Assembly: GCF_001889305.1 (NCBI RefSeq)
Contig: NZ_CP013074.1
Coordinates: forward strand, 1,302,001-1,366,000
Length of the DNA stretch: 64,000 bases
Origin: Dehalococcoides mccartyi
GTDB taxonomy: Bacteria > Chloroflexota > Dehalococcoidia > Dehalococcoidales > Dehalococcoidaceae
Reading direction: 5' to 3'
Every line of letters begins with the position of its first letter. Position 1 is the first letter of the stretch. The notes beneath the pieces were generated by a model that did no database searches, was not told where the DNA came from, and saw only the letters and a program-made list of their open reading frames with translations. Below, piece after piece: positions 3,997 through 59,716 of this stretch. A program made the position numbers and the translations under genes.

Positions 3997-6435
3997 GTGA
4001 GACAGGAGAAATTTACCGAACAAGCCCAGGAAGCCCTCAGCGCTTCACAGTTGCTGGTGCAGGAATATCAGCACAGCCAATGGGATGTGGAACATGTGCT
4101 GCTGGCACTTATCCGTCAGGAAAAAGGACTGGTGGGTGAAATAATAAAAGAACTTAAAGTAAACTCAGAGGAGATAACCAAACAGCTGGCAGAAGCTTTA
4201 AAACGTTCGCCCAAAGCGGTAGGCGGCAACGTTCAGATATACCCCACCCCCCGCATTATCAGCCTGCTGCAAACCGCCAATAACGAAGCAGACCGCCTGC
4301 GGGACGAATTTATAGGGACAGAACACTTGCTGGTAGCTATAGCAGGAGATACCCAGGGAGAATCCGCCCGAATTTTGAAACAGTTTGGTATTGACCAGGA
4401 AAAAGTATATTCCGCTCTCCAAAAAATACGGGGCGGACACCGTGTGACCGATGCCAGAGCTGAAAGCAAATACAGGGCACTGGCTAAATACAGCCGTGAT
4501 TTAACTGAACTTGCCAAACAGAACAAAATAGACCCGGTAATAGGCCGCGACCAGGAAATCCGCCGGGTTATGCAGATACTCTCCCGCCGCACCAAAAACA
4601 ACCCGGTCATTGTGGGTGAAGCTGGTGTTGGTAAAACCGCCATTGCCGAAGGGGTTGCCCAGAAAATTGCGGATAATGACGTACCCGAATCCTTGCGTGA
4701 CCGCAAGGTAATGGCCCTGGACATGGGCGCTTTGGTTGCCGGAAGCAAGTTCCGCGGAGAGTTTGAAGAACGCCTCAAGGCCGTGATGGACGAGGTGCGG
4801 CAATCCGCCGGTGAAATTATTCTTTTCATAGACGAAATCCATACCGTAGTCGGGGCAGGAGCGGCTGAGGGGGCTATAGATGCCTCAAACATGCTCAAAC
4901 CGGCTTTGTCCAGGGGTGAACTCCAGACAATAGGGGCTACCACTCTGGATGATTACCGCAAATATATAGAGAAAGACACTGCTCTGGAACGCCGTTTCCA
5001 GCCGGTATTTGTAGAAGAACCCTCAGTCGACCAAACTATCGAGATATTAAAGGGTATCAGACCCAAGTACGAAGCCCACCACAAGCTGAAGATAAGCGAT
5101 GCCGCACTGGAAGCAGCCGTCAGGCTGTCCAGCCGCTATATTACGGAGCGCCAGCTGCCTGACAAGGCCATAGACCTTATTGACGAAGCCGCAAGCAAAC
5201 TCCGTCTGGATAGCGAAAGTGCCCCGCCGGAAGTAAAGAAACTGGAAAATGAACTCCGCCAGACAGGCATTGAGGAAGAAGCAGCTTCTCAGTTGCAGGA
5301 ATACGAAAAAGCGGCCGAACTCAAAGCCGAAAAGATGCGTCTGGAAGAGAAATTCAATACAGCCCGTGAGGAATGGCTGAAACAGGAAAAAATTGCCGAA
5401 GAAGTCACTGCCGAGCAGATAACGGCACTGGTTTCATCTATGACTGGCATACCGGTCAGCCAGATGCTGGAAGGTGAAGCTTCCAAACTGCTGAATATGG
5501 AAGACCGCATACACGAGCGAATGGTAGACCAGGAAGAGGCAGTAAAAGCCGTAGCTGAAGCTATCCGCCGCAGCCGGGCAGGGCTCAAAGACCCGCGCCG
5601 CCCAATAGGCAGTTTCCTGTTTTTAGGCCCTACCGGCGTAGGCAAAACCGAACTGGCACGCAGTTTAGCATGGTTTTTATTTGATGATGAAACCGCTATG
5701 GTCAGGCTGGATATGTCTGAATACCAGGAAAAACACACTGTCTCCCGTCTGGTAGGTGCACCTCCCGGATATGTGGGCTACGACGAAGGCGGGCAGCTTA
5801 CCGAACTGGTCCGCCGCCGCCCGTACCGGGTTATCCTGCTGGACGAGATTGAAAAAGCCCACCCGGATGTATACAACACCCTGCTCCAGCTGCTGGATGA
5901 CGGCCGCCTGACAGACGGGCAGGGCAGAACGGTGGATTTTAAAAACACGGTTATCATTATGACCTCCAACGCGGGCATAGAAACTATCAAACGCGAATCT
6001 GCCCTGGGTTTTGCCGTCAGGAATGATGACTCCAAGACCCGGCAGGACAGCTATGAACGCATGAAAGACAAGGTCATGGCCGAGGTTAAAAAGACCTTCC
6101 GGCCGGAGTTTATAAACCGGGTGGATGAAATAATTGTCTTCCACGAGCTGGCTGAAGAACAGATACGCAAGATAGTAGATTTCATGATAAAAGATGTCTC
6201 CAAACGCCTTGATGAACGCAAACTCAAGCTGGAGCTGACCGATGCCGCCAAGGGCTGGCTGGCCAAGGTAGGGTATGACCCGGCCTTTGGTGCCAGACCC
6301 CTTCGCAGAGCCATTGAAAGATACATTGAAAGCCCGCTGGCTGGCAAGCTGCTTCGCAATGAGTTTAGTGAAAATGCTACAATACTGGTGGACAAGGCGG
6401 ATGAAGCTCTGAGCTTCAGCCAGAAGACCGCCTGA
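3997..6435 (+). CDS. clpC: AAA+ unfoldase ClpC (Clp protease ATPase subunit)
   Basis: An 812-residue Hsp100 protein with a GTG start 4 bases after the hspR stop. The N-domain (two Clp_N repeats) covers about 1-145. AAA module 1 has Walker A GEAGVGKT (about 207) and Walker B LFIDEIH. A short middle region (about 410-480) looks UVR-like and lacks the long ClpB coiled coil. AAA module 2 has GPTGVGKT (about 543) and LLDEIEKAH. The total length and an LGF tripeptide after [12 protein letters not shown], which matches the ClpP-docking loop, favour ClpC over the disaggregase ClpB (usually about 860 residues). It would feed unfolded proteins to ClpP. Confidence 0.88.
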
Positions 6436-49534: not shown

Positions 49535-50992
49535 ATGTATTATCCATCCTTAGCCGAAGTAAAAAAACTGGCTTCACAGGGTAACCTGATACCCATCTCC
49601 CGTGAGATTGTGGCCGACCTTGAAACCCCGGTTTCCGCCTTTCTGAAAATCAAGACCAGCCAAAATGCCTTTCTGCTGGAAAGCGTGGAAGGAGGCGAAA
49701 GGGTAGCCCGGTACAGTTTCATCGGCGCTAACCCTTACAAAGTAATCACCTCCTATCAGACAGATACCGTTCCCCCTCTAAAGCAGGTTGAAAACGAACT
49801 GAGTAAATACCGCTTGGTACAGGTGGGTGAGCTGCCGCGTTTTTGCGGCGGGGCAGTGGGTTTTCTGGGCTACGAGGCAGTCACCCGCTTTGAAGAGCTG
49901 CCCTCTCCCGCATCAGACCCGTTAAACCTTCCTGAAGCGGTCTTCATGCTGGTAGATACCATGCTGGTTTTTGACCATATCAGCCACTCTATCAAGGTAC
50001 TCAGCTATGTCCATACAGAAGAGGATATTGAAGTCTCTTATAACAAAGCTATCCAAAATATAGAAAAGCTGATTAGCCAGCTCAGGCAGCCGCTTGCCAA
50101 AACAGAGTTAAAACCCGCCCCCGCCGGTGTTCCTGAAACAAAGTCCAATTTCAAACAAACGGATTTTGAGAGCCGGGTATCCAAAATAAGAGATTACCTT
50201 AACTCCGGCGAAGCCATTCAGGTAGTTTTGTCACAGCGTCTGTCCAGACCCACCTCGGCCCACCCCTTTGACATTTACCGCGCCCTGCGTTCAGTAAACC
50301 CTTCCCCGTACATGTATTACCTTGATTTCGGTGATTTCCAGATAGTAGGGGCATCACCTGAGGTGCTGGTGCGGGTGGAAGACGGCGAGGTTATGACCCG
50401 CCCGCTGGCCGGCACCAGAAAACGGGGCAAAACCCAGGCAGAAGATATCCGTCTTGAACAGGAGCTCCGCCAGGACGAAAAAGAGTGCGCCGAACATATC
50501 ATGCTGGTAGATTTGGGCAGAAACGATATCGGCCGCATAAGCAGGCCCGGCACAGTCCGCATAACAGACGTAATGGATGTGGAACGCTATTCCCACGTAA
50601 TGCATCTGGTTTCCCATGTGCAGGGCAAACTGAAAACGGATATCACCCCGTTTGAGGCATTGGAGTCCTGCTTCCCGGCAGGCACAGTCTCCGGCGCACC
50701 TAAGATAAGGGCGATGGAGATAATTGCCGAAATGGAAACCGAAAAACGGGGCATCTATGCAGGGGCTGTGGGTTACTTTTCCTATTCGGGCAATATGGAC
50801 ATGGCTATAGCCATACGCACCATGGTTGTCAAAGACGGCGTTGCCCACTTGCAGGCAGGCTGCGGAATTGTAAGTGACAGCGTACCCGAATCTGAATATC
50901 AGGAAACACTGAACAAGGCTCAGGCTCTGCTGAAAGCCCTGGACAGGGCAGAAAATATGGCAACGGAGAAACCGCATGTTGTTACTAATTGA
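49535..50992 (+). CDS. trpE: Anthranilate synthase component I
   Basis: A 485-residue enzyme converting chorismate to anthranilate with ammonia from TrpG. The N-terminal feedback-site motif [18 protein letters not shown] (about 48-65, with the LLES tryptophan-binding signature) is present. The chorismate-binding domain (about 210-470) includes [27 protein letters not shown] and [20 protein letters not shown]. It is the first gene behind the T-box. Its end overlaps trpG by 17 bases. Confidence 0.97.
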
Positions 50993-57426: not shown

Positions 57427-58920
57427 TTATTTATCATATCCGCCGTGACTTGATGTAGCAGCACTGTCAAACCCGTAAACCGGCAGAGACAGATCCCACC
57501 ACTCTTCCTTGTCCTCGTTCAAACCGTAGCCAAAGAATTTATCCGCCTGCCACAGGAATGTATTCAGGGCGGGAGTAGTAGCCAGAGTAGCCCGGACAAG
57601 TTCATGGATAGGAGCAGTATTTGTATTGAAAGTGCAGGTAGCCATACAAGCACCGCAGCCATTGTACTCTGTCAGGAACAGCCAGCAATCAACAGCATTC
57701 GTCCAATACTGCTTGCGGCCGGGGGAATGGACAATGTCCGCCTTGCCATAAATATTTGGCAAATCCCAGGTGGGTTCATGATCTTTGGGTATGGCGTTTA
57801 CCGGACAGGCATCAGCACACTTGGTACAGGTCTGACAGAACCTCCAGATACCGGCATCTATAGGATTGGTAGGCTCAAGAGGCATATCGGTCACCAAACT
57901 GAACACCCCAAGTACAGGTCCGTATTCAGGGCTAGTGCAAAAACCGTTGTTGCGGTTTCCTTCGGTAATACCGGTCAGCTGGGCGCTGGCAATAGCAGGC
58001 ATAATACCCGAAAAGGGTGAGGCATAACCGTAACAGGTATAGCCAAGTGAACGGATAAATTCCTGAATAGAATTCTGGATATTACCGAAGAGCCGATAAC
58101 GCGACAGATTGGCAGCATACATTATCTGGGATTCATTTGCTGTCCTGAACATGTCTTTGGACATAGGCACGGTGAAGCAAAATTCATAAAGCTGTTTATT
58201 GGCCGGCAGAACAAAAGTAGTCGCCCCTTCGTAACCTACATCCACATCTTCAAATACATATGCTTTGCCCAGCGCCGGAGGCGGTGGGAAATTTTCCACG
58301 AAACCTATAGAGTTCGCAGCCCCTTTATGGTTGGTGAACACCAGTTTATCCTTGATTTTCTGGTCTATAACACCAAAACCGACCTGCCCGCCGCCGTAAA
58401 AGATTACCGCTGAACGCAGCATACGGCTGTTTTCCTCAGGAGTACCCTGCCAGACAGGTACATTCATACTTTGGGGAGTAGCCACCTTCTGGGGACCCAT
58501 AAAAGTGGTCACATAAGGCAAATTCATAAAAAAGCCTGCGCCGGATGAAAGGGCATAATCCTTCAGTGTCTGACCAGGAGTTTCACTGGTAATAGCATTT
58601 ACTTTATTGGTCAGGACATTGGCATATCGTTTCTTTATTTCGTCCACACCCAAATACTTAGCCTGGATACCGGGTGCCTGCCCTGTCTGGCGTCCATCCC
58701 ATCTATTCATCAATGACCAGTCAATTTCAGTAGTGGGATTATCCAACTCACGGTATTTCACCCACCAAGGGCGTTTCCATTCAGCATTAGGCGAAGATAT
58801 CACATCATCCAGATCACGAAAAGCCGGAGCGGCGGCCGCTGCAGTTCCAAGACCGGCACCGACTACCCCAAGCCCTTTCATAAAGTCACGTCGTGACAGC
58901 GCGGAATGAAAATTAGGCAC
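57427..58920 (-). CDS. rdhA: Reductive dehalogenase catalytic subunit RdhA
   Basis: A 497-residue respiratory reductive dehalogenase, which removes halogen from organohalides using a cobamide and two Fe-S clusters outside the membrane. The Tat signal LSRRDFMKGLGVVGAGLGTAAAAAPAF is at residues 8-34. The first cluster motif is CQTCTKCADACP (about 360-371). The second is CX9CX2CX3C ending NGCGACMATC (about 419-428). The start is GTG 58920, with AAGGAA 9-13 bases upstream. Substrate range cannot be read from sequence. The upstream region carries a strong promoter, an operator and a start-stop element. Confidence 0.95.
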   Translation of the reverse strand: MPNFHSALSRRDFMKGLGVVGAGLGTAAAAAPAFRDLDDVISSPNAEWKRPWWVKYRELDNPTTEIDWSLMNRWDGRQTGQAPGIQAKYLGVDEIKKRYANVLTNKVNAITSETPGQTLKDYALSSGAGFFMNLPYVTTFMGPQKVATPQSMNVPVWQGTPEENSRMLRSAVIFYGGGQVGFGVIDQKIKDKLVFTNHKGAANSIGFVENFPPPPALGKAYVFEDVDVGYEGATTFVLPANKQLYEFCFTVPMSKDMFRTANESQIMYAANLSRYRLFGNIQNSIQEFIRSLGYTCYGYASPFSGIMPAIASAQLTGITEGNRNNGFCTSPEYGPVLGVFSLVTDMPLEPTNPIDAGIWRFCQTCTKCADACPVNAIPKDHEPTWDLPNIYGKADIVHSPGRKQYWTNAVDCWLFLTEYNGCGACMATCTFNTNTAPIHELVRATLATTPALNTFLWQADKFFGYGLNEDKEEWWDLSLPVYGFDSAATSSHGGYDK

Positions 58921-58964
58921 TTTTCTATTTCCTTTTTAATAATATTTAGTCTTTCCTATAGTCA

Positions 58965-59003
58965 CCCGGTCTTCCCCGGGAGCCAATTTACATCTTCACC
59001 TCC
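58965..59003 (-). promoter_or_regulatory. rdhA leader with SD, AUG-UAA start-stop element and hairpin
   Basis: On the minus strand, GGAGG (59003-58999) and 5 bases are followed by ATG (58993-58991) and directly by TAA (58990-58988). This is an ideal ribosome-binding site for a one-codon frame, 68-73 bases upstream of the true rdhA start. CCCGG/CCGGG (58965-58969 with 58976-58980) can form a hairpin next. Confidence 0.55.
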
Positions 59004-59023
59004 GAATATTAACTGGCATTTTG

Positions 59024-59049
59024 CTAGTATGCGATACTAGTATACGATT
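59024..59049. promoter_or_regulatory. Tandem/palindromic operator at the rdhA promoter
   Basis: Two 13-base direct repeats, CTAGTATGCGATA (59024-59036) and CTAGTATACGATT (59037-59049), agree at 11 of 13 positions. CTAGTAT-GCG-ATACTAG (59024-59040) is also a perfect palindrome. They cover the predicted rdhA transcription start and touch its -10 box. The divergent MarR protein is the likely ligand. Confidence 0.75.
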
Positions 59050-59075
59050 ATAGTTTTAGATATTTCAGAGGTCAA
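59047..59075 (-). promoter_or_regulatory. rdhA promoter
   Basis: The minus strand reads TTGACC (59075-59070), a 17-base spacer and TATAAT (59052-59047). The start is predicted near 59040, giving a leader of about 120 nt. Confidence 0.78.
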
Positions 59076-59203: not shown

Positions 59204-59716
59204 ATGACTCACAGACTAAGAAAAGACGGCTACAAAATATGGTCAATTCTTATGCAGGCCAGAACGGCAGCCTACCACGTACGCAGAAAAGACCTGATGG
59301 AGTATGGAGTTTCACCGGAACAGGCAGGCATACTGGAACGGCTTTACCACACTAAAGACAAAACTATGACACCCACCCGCATAGCCGAGATTTTTTTACG
59401 TCAGCCCAACACTATTACCGCCATTTTGAGGGGCATGGAGAGAAAAGGGCTGGTTGAACTAAGCAAAGACCTGGAAAGAAAAAACATGATTCGGGTCACC
59501 ATTACCGAAAAGGGCACTCAGCTAAGAGAGATTATAAACACTAATCTTGCTGAAACACGCAAAATATTTGATGTCCTGTCTGACGAGGAGTTGGAACTGC
59601 TGGAAAATATGCTCTTAAGAATAAGAGATAAATCCATAACCCAAACTTCATCCTCCAAGTACAATGCAAAACGCAAACTTGAGCAGATTCACGAATCTGA
59701 CAGCCAGATACTCTGA
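59204..59716 (+). CDS. MarR-family regulator, divergent from rdhAB
   Basis: A 170-residue winged-helix protein. The MarR core is VSPEQAGILERLYHTKDKTMTPTRIAEIFLRQPNTITAILRGMERKGLVELSKDLERKNMIRVTITEKGTQLRE (about 36-110). The N-terminal helix DGYKIWSILMQARTAAYHV and the late DEELELLENMLLRIRDK give the dimer interface. MarR-type genes next to rdhA operons are a known Dehalococcoides arrangement and control them, probably as repressors; halogenated substrates as inducers is inference. Confidence 0.9.
   Translation: MTHRLRKDGYKIWSILMQARTAAYHVRRKDLMEYGVSPEQAGILERLYHTKDKTMTPTRIAEIFLRQPNTITAILRGMERKGLVELSKDLERKNMIRVTITEKGTQLREIINTNLAETRKIFDVLSDEELELLENMLLRIRDKSITQTSSSKYNAKRKLEQIHESDSQIL

Follow-up and report, generated by a model that had tools for sequence, protein, structure and literature searches.

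The leader of a reductive dehalogenase gene (rdhA) in the Dehalococcoides mccartyi window (the whole 64,000-nucleotide stretch of DNA that was analysed) carries a strong Shine-Dalgarno (SD) sequence followed by an ATG and, at once, by a TAA, which raises the question of whether this AUG-UAA pair is itself a regulatory unit or part of a larger leader element. The block, GGAGGTGAAGATGTAA, lies at 59003..58988 on the minus strand and consists of GGAGG (59003-58999), the five bases TGAAG, ATG (58993-58991) and TAA (58990-58988). The sequence-only reading had described GGAGGTGAAG-ATG-TAA with a 5-base spacing, approximately 70 bases before the GTG of rdhA and separated from it by a CCCGG/CCGGG hairpin. 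These observations were confirmed, with an exact agreement in coordinates (59003-58988, minus strand) and a measured distance of 73 nt to the GTG (58920-58918) of a genuine rdhA, and the CCCGG/CCGGG pair (58980-58976 / 58969-58965, minus strand) turned out to be a component of a conserved leader element. Judged by sequence comparison, the immediate stop codon in the window leader is incidental, the leader being one variant of a conserved RNA leader. The features of the locus are as follows.

59204..59716, plus strand: divergent gene for a MarR-family regulator (PF12802 / PF01047).
59047..59075, minus strand: promoter-like TTGACC-17-TATAAT, 11/12 consensus matches, a prediction only.
58940..59009, minus strand: whole leader element, covariance model R1, 61.9 bits, E 1.5e-12, for a sequence that was itself in the training set.
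58996..59003, minus strand: upstream Shine-Dalgarno (uSD), GGAGGTGA, exactly complementary over 8 nt to the 3' end of the 16S rRNA of the same genome.
58991..58993, minus strand: upstream AUG, with GGAGG 5 nt before it and stem 1 starting 13 nt further on; an ATG here is enriched family-wide.
58988..58990, minus strand: UAA directly after the AUG, forming the start-stop; incidental by comparison.
58982..58985, minus strand: UGRC box (TGGC) before hairpin 1, conserved model columns 25-28.
58965..58980, minus strand: hairpin 1, CCCGG-GGAAGA-CCGGG, 5 bp with an NNNAGA hexaloop; the stem covaries across approximately 85 elements.
58961..58964, minus strand: second UGRC box (TGAC), the unit being repeated 20 nt later.
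58947..58958, minus strand: hairpin 2, TAG-GAAAGA-CTA; the loops of hairpins 1 and 2 are spaced by exactly 20 nt, which holds for nearly all elements with two hairpins.
57427..58920, minus strand: rdhA, GTG start at 58920, with PF13486 (E 1.1e-55), a TAT signal and Fer4 domains.

The window rdhA is followed by a 90-aa ORF of RdhB size. The predicted promoter would place the start of transcription near 59040, upstream of the element, so that the start-stop element should lie in the mRNA. The TATAAT is kept, together with the bases around it, in two related leaders from another genome (G002) and lies 41–42 nt before the uSD in all three. Right after this −10 box, the window contains repeats of CGTATACTAGTATCGCATACTAG (59020-59050), also kept in two G002 leaders, which likely form the operator of the divergent MarR-type regulator.

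Taken alone, the start-stop pattern is not improbable, since GGAGG-N4-8-ATG-stop gave one match on both strands of the 64-kb window with approximately 0.5 expected (an estimate from base composition); the excess over chance lies in its membership in a family of rdhA leaders. The SD-ATG-TAA block, which the sequence-only reading had proposed to follow through orthologous leaders, is not kept there: in the G002 ortholog (protein 90% identical) the ATG is gone (AAGGAGATCGCTGAAATAAATTGG) and the TAA is kept, and one G002 paralog leader retains ATG-TAA. Start-stops accounted for 2 of 58 upstream ORFs, close to the 3/64 given by random sequence. Upstream ORF lengths ranged from 1 to 39 codons and their frames were distributed 13/16/22 over the three frames; because frame and length vary freely, the immediate stop is best described as one outcome of an unconstrained reading frame. 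Of the leader control originally envisaged, the ribosome initiation site is real and conserved as a class, whereas the AUG-UAA pair is not supported as the functional unit. The weak GTG start of rdhA, which had been offered as an argument for such control, is not a general feature, as most element-bearing rdhA genes start with ATG. A further SD-start-stop pattern, AGGAGGTGATTACTTTGTAA, was seen at window position 49754 (minus strand).

The upstream SD was examined in 130 rdhA leaders from the window genome, two congeners and relatives, where exact SD-complement matches of at least 6 bases formed two peaks, at −10 and at −70 to −90. The 16S 3' end of the window genome reads GGATCACCTCCTTTCTAAGG and is complemented by GGAGGTGA over 8 nt. 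Exact 8-nt uSDs were found in 34 of the 130 rdhA leaders, as compared with none on the antisense strand and 2.9 after dinucleotide shuffling. A uSD score of at least 14 was reached by 28/99 rdhA leaders and by 19/323 control leaders (other genes from the same stretches), at least 7 of these 19 turning out on inspection to belong to rdhA genes that had escaped the filter. Among rdhA leaders that lack the hairpins, a uSD was present in 26/92 (2.0 expected) and a start codon was not enriched (6 vs 6.6 expected), as expected if ribosome binding itself matters. Separately, the hairpin-less leaders of rdhA genes beginning MNQFHST (L093 14306, L094 6256 and L103 7988) contain GGTCTTCCC, which is the loop-side GGGAAGACC in reverse complement. 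A gene for a 653-aa secreted protein (DUF7507/DUF11; L114 6555-8516) likewise has no hairpins in its leader, where a strong SD-like AAGGAGGTG lies 72 nt upstream of the start.

Between the uSD and rdhA, many leaders contain two hairpin loops 20 nt apart, in the order UGRC, 5-bp stem with an NNNAGA hexaloop, UGRC, 3–4-bp stem with a GAAAGA loop. The UGRC box (model columns 25-28) showed T 93%, G 99%, R 100% and C 100%, and the loop consensus G-A-R-A-G-A had G in 89% of cases at position 1 and A in 100% at position 4. The stems covary, with 128 two-sided cell changes against 49 in shuffled alignments and a covariation score of 0.441 against 0.204 shuffled (slid controls ≤0.133), as counted over 85 distinct matches in an alignment fitted to the model. 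The 35 training sequences were chosen by a pattern demanding three inner pairs of one hairpin, so that the more independent evidence comes from helix 1 outside its inner pairs and from the greater part of helix 2; hairpin 2 is paired in only approximately 74% of cells. The RNA fold of the window leader has no exceptional stability (z −1.24), and part of the uSD is paired in the minimum-energy structure predicted for it. This fold suggested a pairing of UGRC with the sequence before the uSD, which was rejected across 80 elements (19 vs 18.5 expected). A search of Rfam 15 with the window region and 16 related loci gave nothing above chance. In ANTAR-target RNAs, the two hairpins of the tandem have hexaloops with A1 and G4; the loop consensus here (G1 89%, A4 100%) differs from this and the assignment was rejected on that basis. 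An ANTAR protein search, in which no control genome gave a match, does not bear on it. A possible third 20-nt hairpin unit (AATCGGGACAGACC) follows the second in L131 (near 11844) and L145 (near 17235).

The start codon is locked to the first hairpin. An ATG occurred 3–9 nt after the uSD core in 47/85 elements, as compared with 12.2 ± 3.1 for shuffled spacers, and ATG, GTG or TTG in 58/85 (28.2 ± 3.9); with similar copies removed, the ATG values were 39/70 vs 9.7. Approximately 45% of elements lack an ATG at this position. When the SD was ignored, ATG was found at −17, −18 and −19 from the first loop in 15, 14 and 7 of 70 elements, respectively, and 0–3 times at other positions before that loop, except at −11, inside the UGRC box. 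The distance from ATG to loop 1 was 17.8 ± 0.86 nt, that from SD to loop was looser (sd 1.65), and SD-ATG and SD-loop spacings were correlated (r = 0.85). None of 5000 permutations was as tight as the ATG-loop spacing, likewise with similar copies removed. The A of the ATG lies 12–14 nt from the first stem base in 35/37 cases (13 in the window). The mRNA entry and helicase site of the ribosome is located at about +11 to +15 from the P-site codon; with the AUG in the P site, the spacing would be such as to put the stem at the mouth of the mRNA channel.

The covariance model gave 96 matches (E ≤ 0.1) across all 11 Dehalococcoidaceae genomes of the collection, in which each species is represented by a single genome, corresponding to approximately 29% of the 326 rdhA-domain matches in the same genomes. 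Of 86 distinct matches, 84 directly precede an rdhA start, one precedes a remnant of rdhA and the last a Mutator-family transposase. In this last case (L136 5413-6900), the element is of the rdhA type and the transposase apparently represents an insertion separating it from its gene. A phylum sample of 400 genomes yielded only one further genome, with a marginal match, and an order sample of 156 genomes yielded matches in four genomes outside the family. Of these outside-family matches, several of which are statistically weak, at a level where other matches looked like chance, those in one genome (G059) lie before rdhA, those in another (G035) at a contig end and the remainder before genes for exported proteins, namely a DctP solute-binding lipoprotein, two S-layer-like proteins, a secreted caspase-domain protein, a lipoprotein and a small secreted protein. 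The latter matches (L226, L223/L227, L229, L247, L249 and L224/L176, some weak) belong to other families of the order or class; both hairpins are plain in L226 and L229.

We tentatively favor a ribosome-docking leader that protects or primes the rdhA mRNA, similar to STAB-SD elements and leader minigenes. The near-perfect SD, close to where the rdhA mRNA begins, would recruit a 30S or 70S ribosome; in most copies the AUG would occupy the P site and the hairpin foot, 12–14 nt downstream, would stand at the entrance of the mRNA channel. The ribosome would thus be retained, or would pause, close to the 5' end, and in the window leader, with its immediate UAA, it would never leave the spot. The likely outcome would be that the mRNA is shielded from 5' attack, RNase J being encoded in the genome (TIGR00649, 608.5 bits; cut-off 400), and/or that translation of rdhA is primed, two effects that are not separable here. 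The conservation of the loops and UGRC boxes exceeds what a mere roadblock needs, which suggests that something recognizes the hairpins. It is possible, if more doubtful, that these leaders represent a wider class, defined by an AUG at a fixed distance from a hairpin, in which a parked ribosome rather than a peptide regulates mRNAs for exported proteins, rdhA above all.

The main rival to ribosome docking, which we consider less likely, is a tandem-hairpin riboswitch or protein-binding site for which the uSD and AUG would be an expression platform or a secondary feature. The covarying structure described above (0.441 vs 0.204 shuffled) is what a riboswitch would show, the NNNAGA loops and UGRC boxes are near-invariant in sequence and not only paired, the unit repeats at exactly 20 nt, and the published “rdhA motif” is listed as a weak riboswitch candidate (PMC11109978). 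However, the genes after the element, which are rdhA within the family, encode in a few weaker matches outside it exported proteins of other kinds, among them a DctP lipoprotein and S-layer-like proteins, that share no obvious ligand, no terminator was seen after the hairpins in the window leader, and UGRC showed no conserved pairing with the region before the uSD in the 80 elements.

The remaining alternatives assign a role to translation of the upstream ORF. Translational coupling, in which ribosomes initiate upstream, terminate after the short ORF and reinitiate at rdhA, would agree with the start codon at ideal spacing in 58/85 elements and with most upstream ORFs stopping before or near the rdhA start. 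It is nevertheless improbable, as stop positions vary widely and the upstream ORF in L179 and L125 continues in frame into rdhA; nor is coupling needed, since most rdhA genes (90/130, 6-nt match) have an SD of their own. From their sequences, these two in-frame loci (L179, match 2064-2133; L125, match 4329-4398) could encode a dehalogenase extended at its N-terminus, ahead of the TAT signal. The minimal ORF of the sequence-only reading, a start-stop that stalls ribosomes and thereby tunes rdhA, can point to the perfect SD-AUG-UAA in the window leader and one G002 paralog and to a eukaryotic precedent, the AUGUAA of NIP5;1 (PMC11915504), and appears very unlikely in view of the missing ATG in the ortholog and a frequency (2/58) at about chance. 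A conserved leader peptide (frame ..DxRERPDDxGKD..), suggested by the MNSDSRERPDDGGKDRKY-like peptides read from several sister-genus copies, is hardly credible: all three frames are used (13/16/22), and each G-C to A-U exchange in stem 1 changes two residues together, indicating that the RNA pairing is kept and not the peptide.

With respect to known systems, the sequence-only reading had been aware of no description for rdh genes, which is not quite right, as an “rdhA motif” (WRC-34-1) was listed in a 2024 survey as a weak riboswitch candidate with 18 representatives, mostly from Dehalococcoides (PMC11109978). Like the present element, it lies in the leader, directly before reductive dehalogenase genes, the position occupied by 84/86 of the model matches, and the two are probably the same, as compared by description rather than by consensus. 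The survey text makes no mention of an SD and AUG locked to the hairpins, nor of a spread to the sister genus or to exported-protein genes (PMC11109978). In the literature examined, the copy number and spread, the tandem arrangement of the 20-nt unit, the uSD and the fixed spacing of AUG and hairpin appear to be new.

In bacteria lacking RNase E, a strong SD without a start codon stabilizes leaders (PMC3997798). These STAB-SD elements (cryIIIA, aprE and ermC; PMC3997798) share with the dehalogenase leaders a strong SD near the 5' end, a dispensable start codon and an organism with RNase J; here the SD was found independently of a start codon in 26/92 hairpin-less leaders, the window leader has the 8-nt match, and the organism encodes RNase J (608.5 bits). 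Unlike STAB-SD elements, the dehalogenase leaders usually have a start codon locked to covarying hairpins, and stabilization is conjectural in their case. Leader minigenes, proposed to protect mRNA by means of a bound ribosome (PMC8708949), combine a strong SD with a very short ORF whose length is not critical (axe-txe mg2, EHEC LEE1 and LEE4; PMC8708949), and an SD with a start codon at functional spacing is likewise present in 58/85 elements (28 expected). Those are, however, single cases for which the paper names no conserved hairpin pair, as opposed to approximately 96 elements with ORFs of 1–39 codons here. Arabidopsis NIP5;1 also has a leader AUG followed at once by UAA (PMC11915504; PMC5972666) but is eukaryotic, with boron-dependent stalling and decay, whereas the AUG-stop pair is not conserved among related dehalogenase leaders, nor is the UAA.

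Chlorinated solvents are bioremediated by means of reductive dehalogenases, and levels of rdhA transcripts serve as biomarkers of activity. If a docked ribosome does set mRNA stability, the abundance of a transcript would no longer be a simple measure of its transcription. The AUG-hairpin geometry also makes it possible to test cleanly whether a bacterial mRNA can be controlled by initiation alone, with no peptide being made.

The window genome (1.52 Mb) contains 27 rdhA-domain matches. A scan of the species-genome collection returned only four distant rdhA relatives, and annotated plasmid records returned no match. At G000:C1:1460232-1464014 and 1480259-1484047, two nearly identical rdhA pairs lie approximately 20 kb apart, a probable recent segmental duplication.
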